Assembly: GCA_016209155.1 (NCBI GenBank)
Contig: JACQWU010000239.1
Coordinates: 1-6,949, forward strand
From: Candidatus Desantisiibacteriota bacterium
GTDB lineage: Bacteria > JACRDZ01
Length of the DNA stretch: 6,949 bases
Direction: 5' to 3'
In this document: positions 1-6,949 of the stretch, one piece after another
Position numbering within the stretch: position 1 is the first letter of the stretch
How the letters are laid out: each line of letters begins with the position of its first letter
Program-made: the position numbers and the translations under genes
The notes under the pieces: generated by a model
The model's input: the letters and a program-made list of their open reading frames with translations, nothing else
The model's database searches: none
What the model was told of the DNA's origin: nothing

Positions 1-799
1 TAGCTTCTTCAAATAATTTTCGTTCAGAAACAATAGAATTAATTATTTTCCCTGAAAGGATACCGACTCTGCAGCTATGTTGATAAAGATCATCTACCTG
101 AAATTTATCCATTTCTTCTTTCGAAAATTCTCCAAAAGCTTTTACTGTTATTACAATAGATTTTATTGTGTCCATACCGAGATATGATACGGCCTGATAA
201 ATATCAGATATATGATTAGGTAAACCAAAAAACGCTGAATTAACCAATTGCAATACTTTAGCTATCATAATCACATCTTTCTTTATTATTTCAGATACTT
301 CTTTTGATGAACTTTTATCTGATTCTACAAGATTTATTAGCTGTTTATACAAGTCCGGTAAAACCGGTAATATTTTAATTTTGGAAATAAATTCATGGAT
401 TTTAGCTTTATCTTGAGAGACTGTAACCCCAATTGATTTTTGAATAGCTTTTTTTAGCAGATCTGAATTGCAGGGTTTGGTTAGAAATTGATCTGCGGCA
501 TCAATAGTGCGCAAAATCATATCCTTATCACTATAGCCTGAGAGAATAAAACGAATAGTTCTGGGGTAAATTTGTTTGACTTTATTCAGTAATTCAGCTC
601 CATCCATTTCAGGCATACGCATATCCGATATAATAACATCAATAGTTTTTTTTCCCATGATTTCCAATGCTTTTTGCCCCGAATTAACAAACTCCATTTC
701 CCATTCATTCCTCATGCTGTATAGCATTCTGCGCAGTCCATCAAGAATTTTTTGTTCATCATCGACAAAAAGAATTTGCACTTTTTCCCCATTATTCAT
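1..799 (-). CDS. Response regulator with C-terminal HDOD domain (3' end beyond window)
   Basis: I translated this from the minus strand: 266 codons from the ATG at 799-797, running off the left edge. Residues 1-120 form a CheY-like receiver. It has the acidic pair D13/D14, the phospho-acceptor D59 in SDMRMPEMDG, S87 in the switch position and K108 in LTKPC. From about residue 126 an HDOD domain begins (ILPVLPDLYKQLINLV, then IAKVLQLVNSAFFGLP and AVSYLGMDTIKSIV). HDOD is an HD-superfamily fold that lacks the metal-binding HD residues and acts as a signalling or scaffold module rather than a hydrolase. A GGGAG Shine-Dalgarno lies at 810-806, six bases before the ATG. The gene is divergent from cheR, and a sigma-28-like promoter lies just upstream, so a role in motility or chemotaxis output is likely. 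The exact target is unknown. Any further C-terminal domain would lie outside the window. Confidence 0.93.
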   Translation of the reverse strand, partial: MNNGEKVQILFVDDEQKILDGLRRMLYSMRNEWEMEFVNSGQKALEIMGKKTIDVIISDMRMPEMDGAELLNKVKQIYPRTIRFILSGYSDKDMILRTIDAADQFLTKPCNSDLLKKAIQKSIGVTVSQDKAKIHEFISKIKILPVLPDLYKQLINLVESDKSSSKEVSEIIKKDVIMIAKVLQLVNSAFFGLPNHISDIYQAVSYLGMDTIKSIVITVKAFGEFSKEEMDKFQVDDLYQHSCRVGILSGKIINSIVSERKLFEEA

Positions 800-819: not shown

Positions 820-846
820 TTAGCGGCAGGATTACAATAAACCTAA
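820..846 (-). promoter_or_regulatory. Sigma-28 (FliA)-type promoter for the HDOD response regulator
   Basis: On the minus strand, TTAGGTTT (846-839) is followed by exactly 11 bases and then GCCGCTAA (827-820). Against the enterobacterial FliA consensus TAAAGTTT-N11-GCCGATAA this is 6/8 in the -35 and 7/8 in the -10. A start site about 7 bases downstream would give a very short leader that still contains the GGGAG Shine-Dalgarno. Support comes mainly from two similar sites with the same spacing on the opposite strand. Confidence 0.6.
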
Positions 847-859
847 ACTTATTTAATTT

Positions 860-886
860 TAAAGTTTTATTTATATTTGCCACTAA
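860..886 (+). promoter_or_regulatory. Sigma-28 (FliA)-type promoter for cheR
   Basis: TAAAGTTT (860-867) matches the FliA -35 exactly. It is followed by an 11-base spacer (868-878) and GCCACTAA (879-886), which is 6/8 against GCCGATAA. The expected start near 893 gives a leader of about 75 bases before the cheR TTG. The sequence is closely repeated before the next gene at 1819-1845. Confidence 0.72.
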
Positions 887-956
887 TAATGAAAAGTACA
901 GGAATAATTAAGAGATAAAGACAGTTCTAAAATTTTATTTATAGAAATCTTATAAT

Positions 957-960
957 GGAG
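957..960 (+). promoter_or_regulatory. Ribosome binding site that fixes the TTG start of cheR
   Basis: GGAG lies seven bases before the TTG at 968-970. In that frame a TAA at 953-955 closes the frame just upstream, and no in-frame ATG occurs for many codons downstream. TTG is therefore the only good start. Confidence 0.75.
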
Positions 961-967
961 AATAAAA

Positions 968-1810
968 TTGATTAATCAAAGCATAAAAAGCAATACTATA
1001 TATTCAATTAAAATAACACAACTGCAATTCGATAAAATTAGAAAAATAGTATATGAAATAAGCGGTATTAATTTGCAAAATGGTAAAGAAGAACTGGTAC
1101 AATCAAGACTGATTAAACGCCTAAAAGCGTTGGAATTGTCTGATTTTGATGAATATCTGCATTATATAAAACAGGATAGTACCAACAATGAAATTTCTCT
1201 TATGATAGATCTTCTCACAACTAATAAAACAAATTTTTTTAGAGAATATGAACATTTTGAATTCCTGAAAAAACAAATACTGCCAAATTTAAAAACCCGT
1301 AAAATCCGGATATGGAGCGCCGCCTGTTCATCGGGAGAAGAACCGTATTCTATTGCAATGCTTCTGACAGAGAGACTATCTGATATTAATAAATGGGATA
1401 TACGCATACTTGCTACAGATCTCTCATCAATAATTTTAAAAAAAGCAAAAGAAGGTATATATACCGAAGAAATTTTAAGTGACCTGCCGGCACATATTTC
1501 AAAAAAAAATTTTATTGTTTTTAAAAACAAAGATGGCAATTCATATAAAATAAATGATGATATAAAACGAATGGTAACTTTTACGAATTTAAACTTAATA
1601 GGTGAATGGCCCATGCATGGACCTTTTAATGTGATTTTTTGCAGAAATGTAATGATCTATTTTGATAAAAAAACACAACAGACCCTGGTAAATCGTTTCT
1701 GGGATTTGCTTGGACATGGAGATTATCTTTTTACAGGCCATTCAGAAAGCCTTAACGGATTAGAGCACAATTTTAAATATATTCAGCCAGCAATATATAT
1801 TAAAGTATAA
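968..1810 (+). CDS. cheR: Chemoreceptor glutamate methyltransferase CheR
   Basis: CheR transfers methyl groups from S-adenosylmethionine to glutamates on the MCP methylation helices and drives chemotactic adaptation in the cytoplasm. The 280 residues match the usual single-domain-pair length. The N-terminal CheR helical domain (about 18-80) includes LVQSRLIKRLKAL. The catalytic Rossmann domain follows, with TTNKTNFFRE (84-93), the SAM-binding loop IWSAACSSGEEP (115-126), ATDLS (149-153), FNVIFCRNVMIYFDK (220-234) and FTGHSESL (255-262), all close to enterobacterial CheR. No TPR or other extension is present. The start is TTG with a GGAG Shine-Dalgarno, and a sigma-28-type promoter lies 82 bases upstream. 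Its natural partners would be the MCPs across the terminator. The readable MCP tails show no NWETF-like tether, so it probably acts without one. There is no sign of damage. Confidence 0.97.
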   Translation: MINQSIKSNTIYSIKITQLQFDKIRKIVYEISGINLQNGKEELVQSRLIKRLKALELSDFDEYLHYIKQDSTNNEISLMIDLLTTNKTNFFREYEHFEFLKKQILPNLKTRKIRIWSAACSSGEEPYSIAMLLTERLSDINKWDIRILATDLSSIILKKAKEGIYTEEILSDLPAHISKKNFIVFKNKDGNSYKINDDIKRMVTFTNLNLIGEWPMHGPFNVIFCRNVMIYFDKKTQQTLVNRFWDLLGHGDYLFTGHSESLNGLEHNFKYIQPAIYIKV

Positions 1811-1818
1811 AATACATT

Positions 1819-1845
1819 TAAAGTTTATATTAATTTTACCACTAA
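1819..1845 (+). promoter_or_regulatory. Sigma-28 (FliA)-type promoter for the cysteine-rich protein
   Basis: TAAAGTTT (1819-1826) is a perfect FliA -35. It is followed by an 11-base spacer (1827-1837) and ACCACTAA (1838-1845), which is 5/8 against GCCGATAA and differs from the cheR -10 only at its first base. It starts 8 bases after the cheR stop and implies a start near 1852, giving a leader of about 54 bases. The downstream gene would then be transcribed independently of cheR as well as by read-through. Confidence 0.68.
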
Positions 1846-1905: not shown

Positions 1906-2187
1906 ATGGGAGCAAAACAAAATTGCTGGGATGTAAAACAATGCGGGAGAAATCCCGGAGGCGCAAAAATATCATTAATGGGAGTGTGTCCTGCGTCAAC
2001 TGACATCACACATAGTAATCTAAACAATGGAACAAATGGCGGCAGAGCCTGCTGGCTTGTTGCAGGCACATTTTGCGGAGGGAAAGTGCAGGGTGATTTT
2101 GCACAAAAGAAGGTTTCATGTTTGACCTGCAATTTCTTCAATCAGGTTAAAACTGAAGAAGGAACTGCTTTTGTAATGAAAAAATAA
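1906..2187 (+). CDS. Small cysteine-rich 'two-CW domain'-type protein
   Basis: This is a 93-residue soluble protein with no signal peptide or membrane segment. Seven cysteines stand in recognisable spots: C7-W8, C13-G-R, C28-P-A, C49-W50, C57-G-G and the C72-x2-C75 pair. Two CW dipeptides, the GVCPA and AGTFCGG motifs and the closing CxxC match my recollection of the two-CW domain family, small proteins of unknown function seen in Desulfobacterota and relatives. The cysteine spacing would suit a metal or Fe-S site or disulfides, but nothing here decides between them. Translation should be strong: AGGAGGTG at 1893-1900 lies five bases before the ATG. It sits 95 bases after cheR with its own sigma-28-type promoter, which links it to motility by context only. 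Confidence 0.88.
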   Translation: MGAKQNCWDVKQCGRNPGGAKISLMGVCPASTDITHSNLNNGTNGGRACWLVAGTFCGGKVQGDFAQKKVSCLTCNFFNQVKTEEGTAFVMKK

Positions 2188-2190
2188 TTT

Positions 2191-2255
2191 TGTAGTGCGA
2201 GGCAAAAATATCGCTTTTATCGGCCATAACTTTAGCTTCGCACTACATTTTTTTT
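2191..2255 (+). terminator. Stem-loop terminator between the convergent genes
   Basis: TGTAGTGCGA (2191-2200) pairs perfectly with TCGCACTACA (2238-2247), and eight T residues follow (2248-2255). This fits a rho-independent terminator for the plus-strand pair, three bases after the stop of the small gene. The 37-base loop is unusually long. A-rich sequence on the left flank (2178-2187) gives a weaker T-run on the minus strand, so it may also stop transcripts from the MCPs. Confidence 0.72.
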
Positions 2256-2274
2256 GTATATTAGAAACTATTTG

Positions 2275-2322
2275 TTAATGATATTTTGTGGTTTTTTTGC
2301 GGACTGCTGCTGTTTTCATTCA
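2275..2322 (-). pseudogene. Untranslated remnant of the left MCP's C-terminal tail
   Basis: After the TGA stop of the left MCP (2322-2320) the same frame continues for 14 codons, MKTAAVRKKTTKYH, to TAA at 2277-2275. It aligns without gaps to the tail of the right MCP, where TGA corresponds to AGA (Arg) and the following residues are [14 protein letters not shown]. The tail has therefore been cut off by a nonsense change. Confidence 0.65.
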
Positions 2323-4347
2323 ATCGGGGAGCGAGATTTCAAATGTATTGATAATATCTGTCATTTCCTGAGCTTGGGCTGAAAGCTCTTCGGATGCACC
2401 GGCTGATTCTCTTGCATTTGCCGCATTTTGCTGGGTTAATTGATTTAACTGTCCAATTGTCTGATTTATTTGATCTATACCTCTATTTTGCTGCTCTGAA
2501 AATATAGTTATTTCATCCATTATTCCGCTAACTTTTTTAACCTGGGCATCTATATCTTCTAAATTTGTCATAACTTCTTTATTTATTGATACTCCGTCAT
2601 CAGCATTTTTTATTGATTCTAAAATCATATCAGAAGTATTTTTTGCAGCTTCAGAACTCCGCATTGCAAGATTTCTAACTTCTTCCGCTACAACGGCAAA
2701 TCCTTTTCCTGCTTCACCGGCACGCGCAGCCTCAACCGCGGCATTAAGCGCCAGTAGATTTGTCTGAAACGCTATCTCATCTATTGTTTTAATAATTTTT
2801 TCTGTATCTGAAGCGGATTTCTTAATTCTATTCATTGCATCCGACATTTTTTTCATATTTTCAACACCCTTTTCCGCACTTGATTTAGCTGTTTCAGCCA
2901 TATTTCTTGCTTCCATCGAATTAGATGTATTCTGTTTTGTCATAGAATTCATTTCCTGCATATTGCTTGCTACTTCTTCTATAGAACTTGCCTGTGTTAA
3001 ATTACCTTGAGACAAAGTTTGATTACCTGATCCTATTTGTGATGCGGTTGATGTAACTTGTTTTGCTAAAGCTGCTGCCTGCTGTAACCCTTTGTCCAAA
3101 TTATCTAACGCAGTATTCAAAGACTCCTTTATTTTCGCATAATCACCTTTAAAATCACTCATTATACGAACTTTTAAATTCTTAGCGGCTACTTTATTCA
3201 GAACCTGTGCAGTTTTACCTATTTGTTTGCCAATAGCATCAAAAGTCTGATTTATTCCATTTATAATTTTTTTGAAATCACCATCATGTTTATTTTCGTC
3301 CGCTCTTATATCCAATTTACCTTCAATCGCAGATTGCGCGAGCAAATTTGCATCAATAATCAGATTATTTATTGCTTCAATACATTTATTAAGATTGTTT
3401 TTAATTTTATTAAAATCTCCGCTATAATTATCAGTTATTTTAGATGGGATATCACCGTTACCGATTCTATCAATATATTCACTGGCAGCATTTAAAGGTA
3501 TGGTAACAGCATCTATAGTATCGTTAATACCTTTAATTATGTCTTGATATCCGCCCGGGAGTTTATTAATATTACCGCGAGTTGCCAGTTGTCCTTCTAC
3601 TGCAGCATTTGTTAGCATTTTTGATTCTTCAATTAACTCATTTATGGCATCTATACATTTATTAATATTGTTACTGATTTTATTAAAATCGCCGCCGTAG
3701 TTGTCAGTTATTTTAGACGGGATATCGCCATTACTAATTCGATTAATATATTCACTGGCGGCATTTAATGGCCCAATAACAGCATCCATAGTATCATTAA
3801 TACCTTTTATTATATCTTTATATCCTCCATGAAATTTGTTAATATCACCTCGAATTGCAAGACGTCCTTCTATAAAGGCGTTTGTCAGCATCATGGATTC
3901 TTTAACAAGCCCGCGCAGTGAATTACTAATTTCATTTAATGCCAGAGAAATTTCATCAATATTATCTTTAGCTGTAACATTTAGAGTTAAATCGCCGTCT
4001 GCGATTTTTTTCATTGTGCTAACAATATTGTTCTGTAAATCATCCGCAAAATCATCCATGGTTTTTGCCAGGATCCCAATTTCATCAGCTCTTTCAAATT
4101 CTAACCGGGCGTCAAGATGGCCATTACTTAACTCCTGCATCATTTTAGTACTTTTATTAATTGGACGGGTAATGGAAAGTGTAAGAAAAAAACCCAGACA
4201 AAAAGCAATTATAATAGCTGCAATCGTACCGGTAATACCTGCAAGTATTGAAACAATAATAAAACTACTGATAAGCTTTGTCCCAATTTTTATATTATTT
4301 AAATTCATTGACAGGAGGATATTGCTTATTTTCTCTCGTAGTGACAT
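2320..4347 (-). CDS. Methyl-accepting chemotaxis protein, sensor domain deleted, multi-HAMP
   Basis: This 675-residue chemoreceptor would signal to CheA/CheW. A short basic N terminus leads into a continuous hydrophobic stretch (about 25-59) that looks like TM1 joined directly to TM2. The periplasmic sensor is absent, although the paralogue to the right keeps it. A canonical HAMP follows (about 52-108, ITRPINK and DEIG), then a chain of HAMP-like units to about 417. The coiled-coil signalling domain (about 420-670) has an intact tip, [20 protein letters not shown] continuing through [19 protein letters not shown] (525-565). The protein stops at ISLPD, and homology to its neighbour's tail continues past the stop. 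A GGGGG ribosome site (4358-4354) supports the ATG at 4347; M15 ([12 protein letters not shown]) is closer to the usual MCP start but has no Shine-Dalgarno. R646 replaces a Glu of the usual EES in the second methylation helix. The gene is open but probably blind to periplasmic ligands. Confidence 0.9.
3097..3891 (-). repeat. Tandem 91-residue double-HAMP units in the left MCP
   Basis: Residues 153-243 and 244-334 are two close 91-residue repeats. Each starts near MLTNA.xEG.LA.RG and contains [18 protein letters not shown] third, diverged unit (335-417) includes [13 protein letters not shown] and [14 protein letters not shown]. Each unit reads as two HAMP-like segments of about 45 residues. 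With the canonical HAMP and one more segment (about 109-152) this gives about eight HAMP-like segments in series. Confidence 0.8.
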
Positions 4348-4402: not shown

Positions 4403-4981
4403 TTAAAAAGTTTTTAATATTTGATCATCACTGCCCATGGGAATTATTTTTTCCATGTTTAGTTTGGAAATATTTTTTTGACCCATAGTGTCAACTGAAA
4501 TTAAATTAGATTTTTTAGCATCAGCCATTCTTTCAAAATGATGTTTTGCAGTCTTTTTAACGCTTCCTGACGATTTGATTCTATCGGGGAGTGAAATTTC
4601 AAATGAATTAACAAGACTTGTCATTTCCTGAGCTTGTGCTGAAAGTTCTTCAGATGCGCTGGCTGATTCTTCTGCATTTGCCGCATTTTGCTGGGTTAAC
4701 TGGTTTAACTGGCTAATTGCTTGATTTATTTGATCTATACCCTTATTTTGCTGTTGTGATGATGTGGATATTTCTTCCATTATTTCACTAACTTTATTAA
4801 CCTGAACATTGATATCTTCTAAATTTGACATTACTTCTTTGTTTATTGATACTCCATCATCAGCATTTTTTATTGATTCAACAATCATAACAGAGGTATA
4901 ATCCTTTTCCTGCTTCTCCGGCACGCGCGGCTTCAACCGCAGCGTTAAGCGCCAGTAGATTTGTTTGAAACGCAATCTCAT
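4403..4981 (-). CDS. C-terminal fragment of the right MCP
   Basis: This 192-codon open frame is the distal part of the broken receptor. Only the last 164 residues (from T29, position 4897) are genuine MCP sequence: [28 protein letters not shown], then the second methylation helix [20 protein letters not shown]. The first 28 codons are read out of frame across the end of the upstream fragment. Beyond ISLPD it carries a 60-residue, basic, probably unstructured tail ([15 protein letters not shown] to DDQILKTF) that is lost from the left MCP. It has no transmembrane or sensor part and no convincing ribosome site, so it is unlikely to be a protein of its own. The two fragments overlap by 104 bases, which could mislead automated annotation into calling two genes. 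Confidence 0.75.
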
Positions 4982-6860
4982 CTATTGTTTTAATGATTTT
5001 TTCCGTATCTGAAGCGGATTTTTTAATTCTATTCATTGAATCAAACATTTTTTTCATGTTTTCAACACCTTTTTCCGCACTTACTTTAGCTGTTTCACTC
5101 ATATTCCTTGCTTCCATCGAATTAGATGTATTCTGTTTTGTCATGGAATTCATTTCCTGCATACTGCTTGATACTTCCTCAATAGAACTTGCCTGTGTTG
5201 AACTGCCTTGAGATAAAGTTTGACTGCCTGATCCTATTTGCGATGCTGCTGAAGTAACTTGTTCTGCTGAAGTAGCTACTTGCTGTAGCCCTTTATCCAG
5301 ATTATCTACTGCTGTATTCAAAGATTCCTTTATTTTCGCGTAATCACCTCTAAAATCACTCGTTATACGAACTGTTAAATCTTTAGCAGCTACTTTATCT
5401 AAAATTTGAGCAGCCTCATTAATTGGTTTAACAACAGCATCAAGAGTCTGGTTTACTCCATTTATAATTTTTTTGAAATCACCATTATGTTTATTTTCAT
5501 CTGCTCTTATATCCAATTTACCTGCAACAGCATATTGTACAAGCATATTTACATCATTAACAAGATTATTAATTGATTCAATACATTTATTGAGATTACC
5601 TTTGATTTCATTAAAATCACCGTTGAAATTGTCGGTTATTTTGGATGGGATATCACCTTTGCTAATCTCATCGATAAATACCGCAGCAACATTTAATGGA
5701 CCAATAACAGCATCCATAGTATCATTAACACCTTTAATAATATCTTTATATTCACCTGAAAATTTATTTATATCACCACGTATTCCCAATCGTCCTTCTA
5801 TGGCAGCGTTTGTCAGCATTTTTAATTCTGCAATCAGATCATTTATAACATCTATGTTTTTATTAAGATTGTTTTTAATTCCGTTAAAATCACCGTTATA
5901 ATTGTCGGTTATTTTGGGAGGGATATCACCTTTACTGATCTTATCGATGTATTCAGCGGCAACATTTATTGGTCCTATAACAGCATCCATAGTATAATTA
6001 ATACCTTCAATTATATTTTTGTATCCGCCCAAAAATTTGTTTGTATCACCGCGAGTTGCAAGACGGCCTTCAATCAAAGCGTTTGTCAGCATTTTTGATT
6101 CCTCAACCAGCCCGCGCAGGGAATTACTGATCTCATTTAATGCCGGAGAAATTTCGTCCATATCATCTTTAGCAGCAACATTCTGGTTTAGCTCCCCATC
6201 AGCTATTTTTTTCATTGCGCTAATAATATTATTCTGTAAATTATCTGCAAAACTATCCATTGTTTTTGCCAGGATACCAATTTCATCAGCTCTTTCAAGT
6301 TTTAATCGAGCATCAAGATGCCCTTTGCTCAATTCCTGAATCATCTTAATGCTTTTATTCATTGGATGGGGAATTGAAAGTGAAAGAAAAATTCCAAAAC
6401 AACAAGCAATTATAAAAGCTATAATAATAGCACCCAGCATTATTTTAGTGGATCTATTTGCAATTACTGCATTATTTATAGATGTTTTTTTAGTATCATT
6501 AATACTCATATTGGCATAAGCCATAATTGATTTAACTAAATCATCTGATTCTTTATTTAAATCATTTTTTAATAATAATTTGGCTTCATCATTTTTCTTA
6601 AATATCAATAAATTATATATTTTGGTTGATACTTCAATATAGTTTTTTTTCTCATTTATTAACTCATCAAATAAAGTTTCATCTTCTTTATCAACTATAG
6701 ATTTTTTTGGCTCATCCAGGTTTTCATCCACAATTTTGGATAACACGATAATCCCCTCCTGTAATTCTTTAATTTCTTTAAAATCACTGGCTAAAAACAT
6801 TTTATGCAGGTTTTTTCTAAAAAAAAAAAAAAAAACACCTATATTAATTAAATTCCCCAT
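4878..6860 (-). CDS. N-terminal fragment of the right MCP: sensor, TM2, HAMP chain, half hairpin
   Basis: This 660-codon open frame covers most of the broken receptor. Residues 1-138 look like the periplasmic four-helix-bundle MCP sensor: PMGNLINIGV before the frame start, RKNLHKMFLA and long charged helices. An odd run of five Phe comes from a 17-base T tract. TM2 is about 141-163 and a HAMP follows (SIPHPMNKS, DEIG), with IPHP where the paralogue has ITRP. The HAMP chain runs to about 521. The ascending signalling helix reaches the tip ([22 protein letters not shown]), and after GKG the frame shifts into LYLCYDC and stops. The descending helix is lost here, so CheA/CheW coupling by this fragment is not expected. 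The first Met at 6860 is probably not the true start, since TM1 and the sensor's first helix lie upstream in another frame. Confidence 0.8.
   Translation of the reverse strand: MGNLINIGVFFFFFRKNLHKMFLASDFKEIKELQEGIIVLSKIVDENLDEPKKSIVDKEDETLFDELINEKKNYIEVSTKIYNLLIFKKNDEAKLLLKNDLNKESDDLVKSIMAYANMSINDTKKTSINNAVIANRSTKIMLGAIIIAFIIACCFGIFLSLSIPHPMNKSIKMIQELSKGHLDARLKLERADEIGILAKTMDSFADNLQNNIISAMKKIADGELNQNVAAKDDMDEISPALNEISNSLRGLVEESKMLTNALIEGRLATRGDTNKFLGGYKNIIEGINYTMDAVIGPINVAAEYIDKISKGDIPPKITDNYNGDFNGIKNNLNKNIDVINDLIAELKMLTNAAIEGRLGIRGDINKFSGEYKDIIKGVNDTMDAVIGPLNVAAVFIDEISKGDIPSKITDNFNGDFNEIKGNLNKCIESINNLVNDVNMLVQYAVAGKLDIRADENKHNGDFKKIINGVNQTLDAVVKPINEAAQILDKVAAKDLTVRITSDFRGDYAKIKESLNTAVDNLDKGLQQVATSAEQVTSAASQIGSGSQTLSQGSSTQASSIEEVSSSMQEMNSMTKQNTSNSMEARNMSETAKVSAEKGVENMKKMFDSMNRIKKSASDTEKIIKTIDEIAFQTNLLALNAAVEAARAGEAGKGLYLCYDC
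5298..6092 (-). repeat. Tandem 91-residue double-HAMP units in the right MCP
   Basis: Residues 257-347 and 348-438 of the open frame are 91-residue repeats matching those of the left MCP in length and order (MLTNA.IEGRL..RGD.NKF and GDIP.KITDN.NGDFN). The third, diverged unit is 439-521. The same unit order and length in both genes shows that the chain existed before the two genes duplicated. Confidence 0.8.
6819..6835. repeat. 17-base A/T homopolymer inside the right MCP sensor
   Basis: Seventeen A on the plus strand (T on the coding strand) encode V-FFFFF in the current frame. The frame is consistent on both sides of the tract. Such a tract is prone to slipped-strand mispairing and also to sequencing error. 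Confidence 0.85.
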
Positions 6861-6868
6861 TGGTTTAG

Positions 6869-6879
6869 TTTTTTTTTTT
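6869..6879. repeat. 11-base T/A homopolymer at the N-terminal frame break
   Basis: Eleven T on the plus strand (A on the coding strand) join two sensor-like reading frames that do not match. Nine or twelve bases would make them continuous. Confidence 0.8.
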
Positions 6880-6949
6880 CAAAAAGAAATGTATCAGCAT
6901 TATTAAGAGTTTTTAAATTTGTAATCCCAATAAAACCAACGATTCCTAC

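Follow-up and report, generated by a model that had tools for sequence, protein, structure and literature searches.

Candidate sigma-28-type promoters precede cheR, a receiver-HDOD gene and a two-CW gene in a Candidatus Desantisiibacteriota bacterium

Introduction

The published consensus of Escherichia coli promoters recognised by the flagellar sigma factor sigma-28 (FliA) is TAAAGTTT-n11-GCCGATAA (PMC2859248), and a stricter published rule accepts at most two mismatches to TAAA/GCCGATAA (PMC8325347). Sigma-28 control has been predicted for a che cluster of Geobacter (PMC2577667). The sigma factor WhiG, believed to be the driver of type IV pili in Rubrobacter, has promoter specificity in common with the flagellar sigma factor (PMC8325347).

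Here we describe three sites of this kind in a 6,949-nucleotide stretch of DNA from a Candidatus Desantisiibacteriota bacterium (the window), which is one entire contig of a 3.08 Mb assembly in 352 contigs that is 79% complete. The locus resembles the class 3 (sigma-28, FliA) promoters of E. coli and Salmonella in its octamers, its 11-base spacer, the presence of FliA and FlgM, a site before flgM and a chemotaxis gene among the targets. It differs from them in the preferred -10 element, which here is GCC(G/A)(A/C)TAA or GCCGATTA, and in its receiver-HDOD and two-CW targets, with no sites seen before motA, fliD or genes of methyl-accepting chemotaxis proteins (MCPs). As in Geobacter, a predicted sigma-28 site stands before chemotaxis genes outside the enterics; there it is in the leader of a major che cluster, whereas here it precedes a cheR that stands alone, next to an HDOD gene in divergent orientation. 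The WhiG-RsiG regulon has the same promoter sequence and the same sigma family, but it is linked to type IV pili and RsiG, in contrast to the flagellar cluster with FlgM found here.

Results

Three sites with 11-base spacers

The spacer between the -35 and -10 octamers is exactly 11 bases, the spacing of sigma-28 promoters, in all three sites (Table 1). Direct reading and a pattern search reproduced to the base the sequences, coordinates, strands and spacers given in an earlier sequence-only reading, and sites A and B lie, as it described, back to back and 13 bases apart. Each site was said to precede a different gene on the correct strand, and this is the case: all three are outside long open reading frames and point at the next gene. 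The distance to the start codon is about 21 bases for site A (ATG, 799), 82 bases for site B (TTG, 968) and 61 bases for site C (ATG, 1906). The sites agree with the octamers of the strict TAAAGTTT/GCCGATAA consensus apart from three (A), two (B) and three (C) of the 16 bases.

Table 1. Sites, genes and other elements of the window
Feature	Position	Strand	Sequence or match	Remark
Site A	820..846	minus	TTAGGTTT-N11-GCCGCTAA	candidate sigma-28-type promoter, receiver-HDOD gene
Site B	860..886	plus	TAAAGTTT-N11-GCCACTAA	candidate sigma-28-type promoter, cheR
Site C	1819..1845	plus	TAAAGTTT-N11-ACCACTAA	candidate sigma-28-type promoter, two-CW gene; between cheR and two-CW gene
Response regulator receiver + HDOD protein	2..799	minus	PF00072 E 2e-22, PF08668 E 3e-28	cut by contig end
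cheR, chemoreceptor methyltransferase	968..1810	plus	PF01739 E 3e-64, PF03705	TTG start, GGAG upstream
Small two-CW domain protein, 93 aa, cysteine-rich	1906..2187	plus	NF045718 E 7.5e-29, above cut-off	AAAGGAGG ribosome site
Probable terminator	2191..2256			strong stem-loop then T run, between two-CW gene and convergent MCP gene
MCP, tandem HAMP domains	2320..4347	minus	PF00015, PF18947	best upstream sigma-28 score 5.9, no site
Second MCP	4403..6949	minus		broken into several frames

The stem-loop of the probable terminator has a fold energy of -25.5 kcal/mol (z -5.3) and was missed by a simple terminator scan. An Rfam search of the window returned nothing. The N-terminal frame of the second MCP (6800-6949) is interrupted near T/A runs at about 6815-6880, and some 30 profile positions are missing from its signalling domain near 4900, where the frame changes; decay, phase variation or an assembly error could each account for the broken gene.

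The pattern used in the searches had been partly fitted to sites A-C (R and M in the -10 element), and because it had been shaped by the sites, chance was also assessed with a second matrix built from the textbook consensus alone, without the window sites and with weights of our own choice. Its false-hit rate was taken from matches with incorrect spacer lengths (6-9 and 13-17) in the intergenic DNA of the same genome. At scores of at least 14, 0.003 sites were expected in the window gaps and three were observed.

The sites are of unequal strength, scoring 18.3 bits (B, cheR), 15.1 bits (C, two-CW) and 14.0 bits (A, HDOD). Site A has the -35 core TTAG instead of TAAA, and these two departures, the lowest score and the adjacency to a strong site would fit a reading in which B and C are sigma-28 promoters while A is not and the receiver-HDOD gene is read otherwise. 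We consider this unlikely, as so few sites of its score are expected in the window gaps and its -10 octamer recurs: a receiver-HDOD paralogue in the same genome (42% identical) has GCCGCTAA 20 bases before its ATG. The layout there matches that of site A, with a poorer -35 element (TAATTAAT).

Recurrence was also seen for the two-CW gene. In G003, a genome of the same phylum, the start of a two-CW gene 54% identical to that of the window is preceded at a distance of 24 bases by TAAAATTT-N11-GCCGATAT, which scores 16.6 bits. The remaining three two-CW genes there lack such a site, so that one is present for one of four two-CW genes in G003 and for one of the two in the genome studied here. At the cheR loci of distant relatives, no conserved site was found before cheR, and these relatives are too distant for the comparison. 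At locus L212 (G035:C327), the closest cheR relative (51% identity) is immediately preceded by a two-CW match that contains one in-frame TGA; two-CW and cheR are thus neighbours in a distant genome too.

Sigma factors and FlgM

A fliA homologue is present in the genome (C270; TIGR02479, 268 bits against a cut-off of 189.6). A profile search of the genome identified two members of the FliA/WhiG family above the cut-off, C270 (259 aa) and C176 (478 aa). The stretch DELRAMDWAPRSIRKKAR in region 2.4 of C270 and a 31-residue stretch in region 4.2 closely match the solved FliA chain 6pmi. The C176 sigma factor (L029, 286-1722) is divergent and has a C-terminal extension of about 230 residues without a Pfam match. 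A FliA-family gene is present in each of the four genomes of the phylum; in G002 it lies near cheD and cheX/cheC genes.

FlgM is encoded in the same genome (PF04316, E 1e-12; C264), adjoining a rod-binding (FlgJ-like) protein and FlgN. In this cluster FlgM, FlgN and the rod-binding protein were named by Pfam, and FlgF, FlgG, FlgH, FlgI, FlgK and FlgL from our own reading of the sequence. The site TAAAGTTA-N11-TCCTCTAA is located 37 bases upstream of flgM. The strongest sigma-28 site outside the window, TAAAGTTT-N11-GCCGATTA, precedes a gene for a 67-residue FlgM-like protein on C120, whose name is tentative because its PF04316 match (E 0.001) is below the curated cut-off. The protein, which is possibly a second anti-sigma factor, is encoded outside any flagellar cluster (G000:C120, 2362-2565, minus strand). 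The protein encoded before fliA on C270 was considered as FlgM and rejected, since it has no Pfam match; it is a conserved neighbour of fliA. In three genomes of the phylum, the gene immediately upstream of fliA encodes a small protein of unknown family (L028, 1704-2183; L146, 2305-2670; L147, 1743-2108), with 56% identity over 90 residues between two of the three.

Given two sigma factors of one family, the sites might be read by C176, or FliA might be WhiG-like here and serve a non-flagellar regulon. FliA and WhiG share one promoter sequence, WhiG is associated with type IV pili in Rubrobacter, and the window genes encode signalling proteins rather than flagellar parts. By E-value, the best NCBIfam match of C270 and of C176 alike is the WhiG model, below its cut-off, and for each the top solved matches, 6pfj and 6pfv, outscore the FliA chain 6pmi. 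We nevertheless regard such a reading as improbable. A site stands before flgM within the flagellar cluster, C270 is closer than C176 to solved FliA in region 2.4 (DWAPRS versus DWATRS), and the other three genomes of the phylum have exactly one copy above the cut-off, which is C270-like.

Excess over chance and position in the genome

The three sites had been judged hard to ascribe to chance, a view borne out by shuffling as well as by the independent textbook matrix. In the whole window, the pattern with up to three mismatches has five matches against 0.24 expected, a number attained in none of 200 shuffles. In the intergenic stretches 800-967 and 1811-1905, three sites have at most two mismatches; the mean was 0.0025 in 2,000 shuffles that preserved dinucleotides, and no shuffle contained two. 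Matches are thus far from equally common in shuffled sequence. Eight sigma-70-like sites occur in the region, site A is modest and AT-rich DNA gives rise to many weak matches, but it is very improbable that the three sites are noise of this kind and that the housekeeping sigma-70 transcribes the genes, because sigma-70-like sites are about as frequent as in shuffled sequence (8 versus 8.2), the sigma-28 sites far exceed their shuffled level, and the latter recur before homologous genes.

Raw counts of matches in the whole genome are uninformative, whereas their position before genes is informative. The loose pattern with at most two mismatches has 20 matches genome-wide against 43 for a reversed control; only five are intergenic, namely the three of the window, one before the FlgM-like gene and one before a gene of unknown function, and this search is free of bias from the choice of contigs. 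Across the phylum, matches to the strict consensus with at most one mismatch did not exceed those to the reversed pattern to an extent that would support a claim. Under the TAAA/GCCGATAA rule with at most two mismatches, site B alone of the three passes, and matches in the genome are not above the numbers at other gaps; four of the ten matches are upstream of cheR, cheW, FlgM-like or HDOD genes.

Genes were ranked by the textbook-matrix score of their highest-scoring site with 11-base spacing in the 250 bases upstream. The ranking covered 971 genes in a sample of 121 contigs (1.02 Mb of 3.08 Mb), which was partly picked for hits or flagellar genes, so that hit counts are biased upward. In these contigs, four intergenic 11-spaced sites outside the window score at least 15, against 0.33 expected, and five score at least 13, one of them before flgM and one before the weakly FlgM-like gene. 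The cheR gene ranks first, the FlgM-like gene of C120 second, the two-CW gene sixth, the receiver-HDOD gene ninth and flgM of C264 eleventh.

The enrichment of sites before motility genes proposed in the sequence-only reading was found for 11-spaced sites as a class and not for several of the expected genes. With 200 bases upstream considered, five of the 12 top genes are among the 39 labelled as motility genes (p = 5e-5), a value that is generous because the labelled set counts the window's own two-CW and receiver-HDOD genes; when the window is excluded, two of the top nine are (p = 0.035). Outside the window the enrichment is due to flgM and the weak FlgM-like gene. In the sampled contigs it occurs at spacing 11 and is absent at every other spacing from 6 to 17. 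Within the 971-gene ranking, no 11-spaced sigma-28 site was found upstream of motA, fliD or MCP genes, nor upstream of most of the che cluster; many motility genes are internal to operons or close to the end of a contig. The main che and MCP genes may belong to operons with unsampled leaders or use another promoter. Upstream of a cheW gene on C113, GCCGATAA is paired with a poor -35 element, and a site with 12-base spacing stands before a cheW-type gene on C5. The fliD matches at L081 (G000:C154, 2342-4448, minus strand) are split across two reading frames. Flagellin was not found in the 79%-complete assembly, in which the sole Flagellin_N match is an FlgL-like gene. Two strong sigma-28-type sites on G000:C15 (455-481, plus; 3807-3833, minus) are upstream of two genes of unknown function, one for a probable lipoprotein and one for a protein of 121 residues.

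Discussion

From their sequence and setting, we infer that sites A-C are very probably promoters for RNA polymerase carrying the flagellar-type sigma factor FliA. Sites A and B would form a divergent pair, from which the receiver-HDOD gene is transcribed leftward and cheR rightward. Site C would re-start transcription for the two-CW gene inside the cheR-two-CW pair. No terminator-like site was found on the plus strand from cheR to the two-CW gene, which may therefore also be transcribed by read-through from cheR, so that site C would supplement the read-through rather than replace it. By analogy with other flagellates, the anti-sigma factor FlgM would hold FliA back until completion of the hook. 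The HDOD, CheR and two-CW products would then be synthesised as the flagella are completed, presumably for use in chemotaxis. These results support the earlier proposal that the HDOD regulator, CheR and the cysteine-rich protein are switched on with the late flagellar genes. As flagellin was not found and no sites were seen before motA, fliD and the MCP genes, the link to the late flagellar genes is made mainly through flgM.

We judge the regulon to be genuine but ordinary, an instance of well-known regulation. Its less expected targets are the receiver-HDOD gene and the two-CW gene, of which the latter is the least expected; we found no described function of the two-CW domain in the literature. 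Tentatively, the two-CW protein and receiver-HDOD regulators may be controlled by the flagellar sigma factor in this phylum as a regular part of the motility programme, a generalisation that we put somewhat short of an even chance. If it is true, this membership would be the first functional setting for the two-CW family. The sigma-28-type site before the two-CW gene gives a hint of a possible role of the cysteine-rich protein. A sigma-28/FlgM switch whose promoter resembles that of E. coli is recognisable from raw sequence in a lineage remote from the model organisms, and both the two-CW protein and the HDOD signalling proteins are placed under likely motility control, which is testable.
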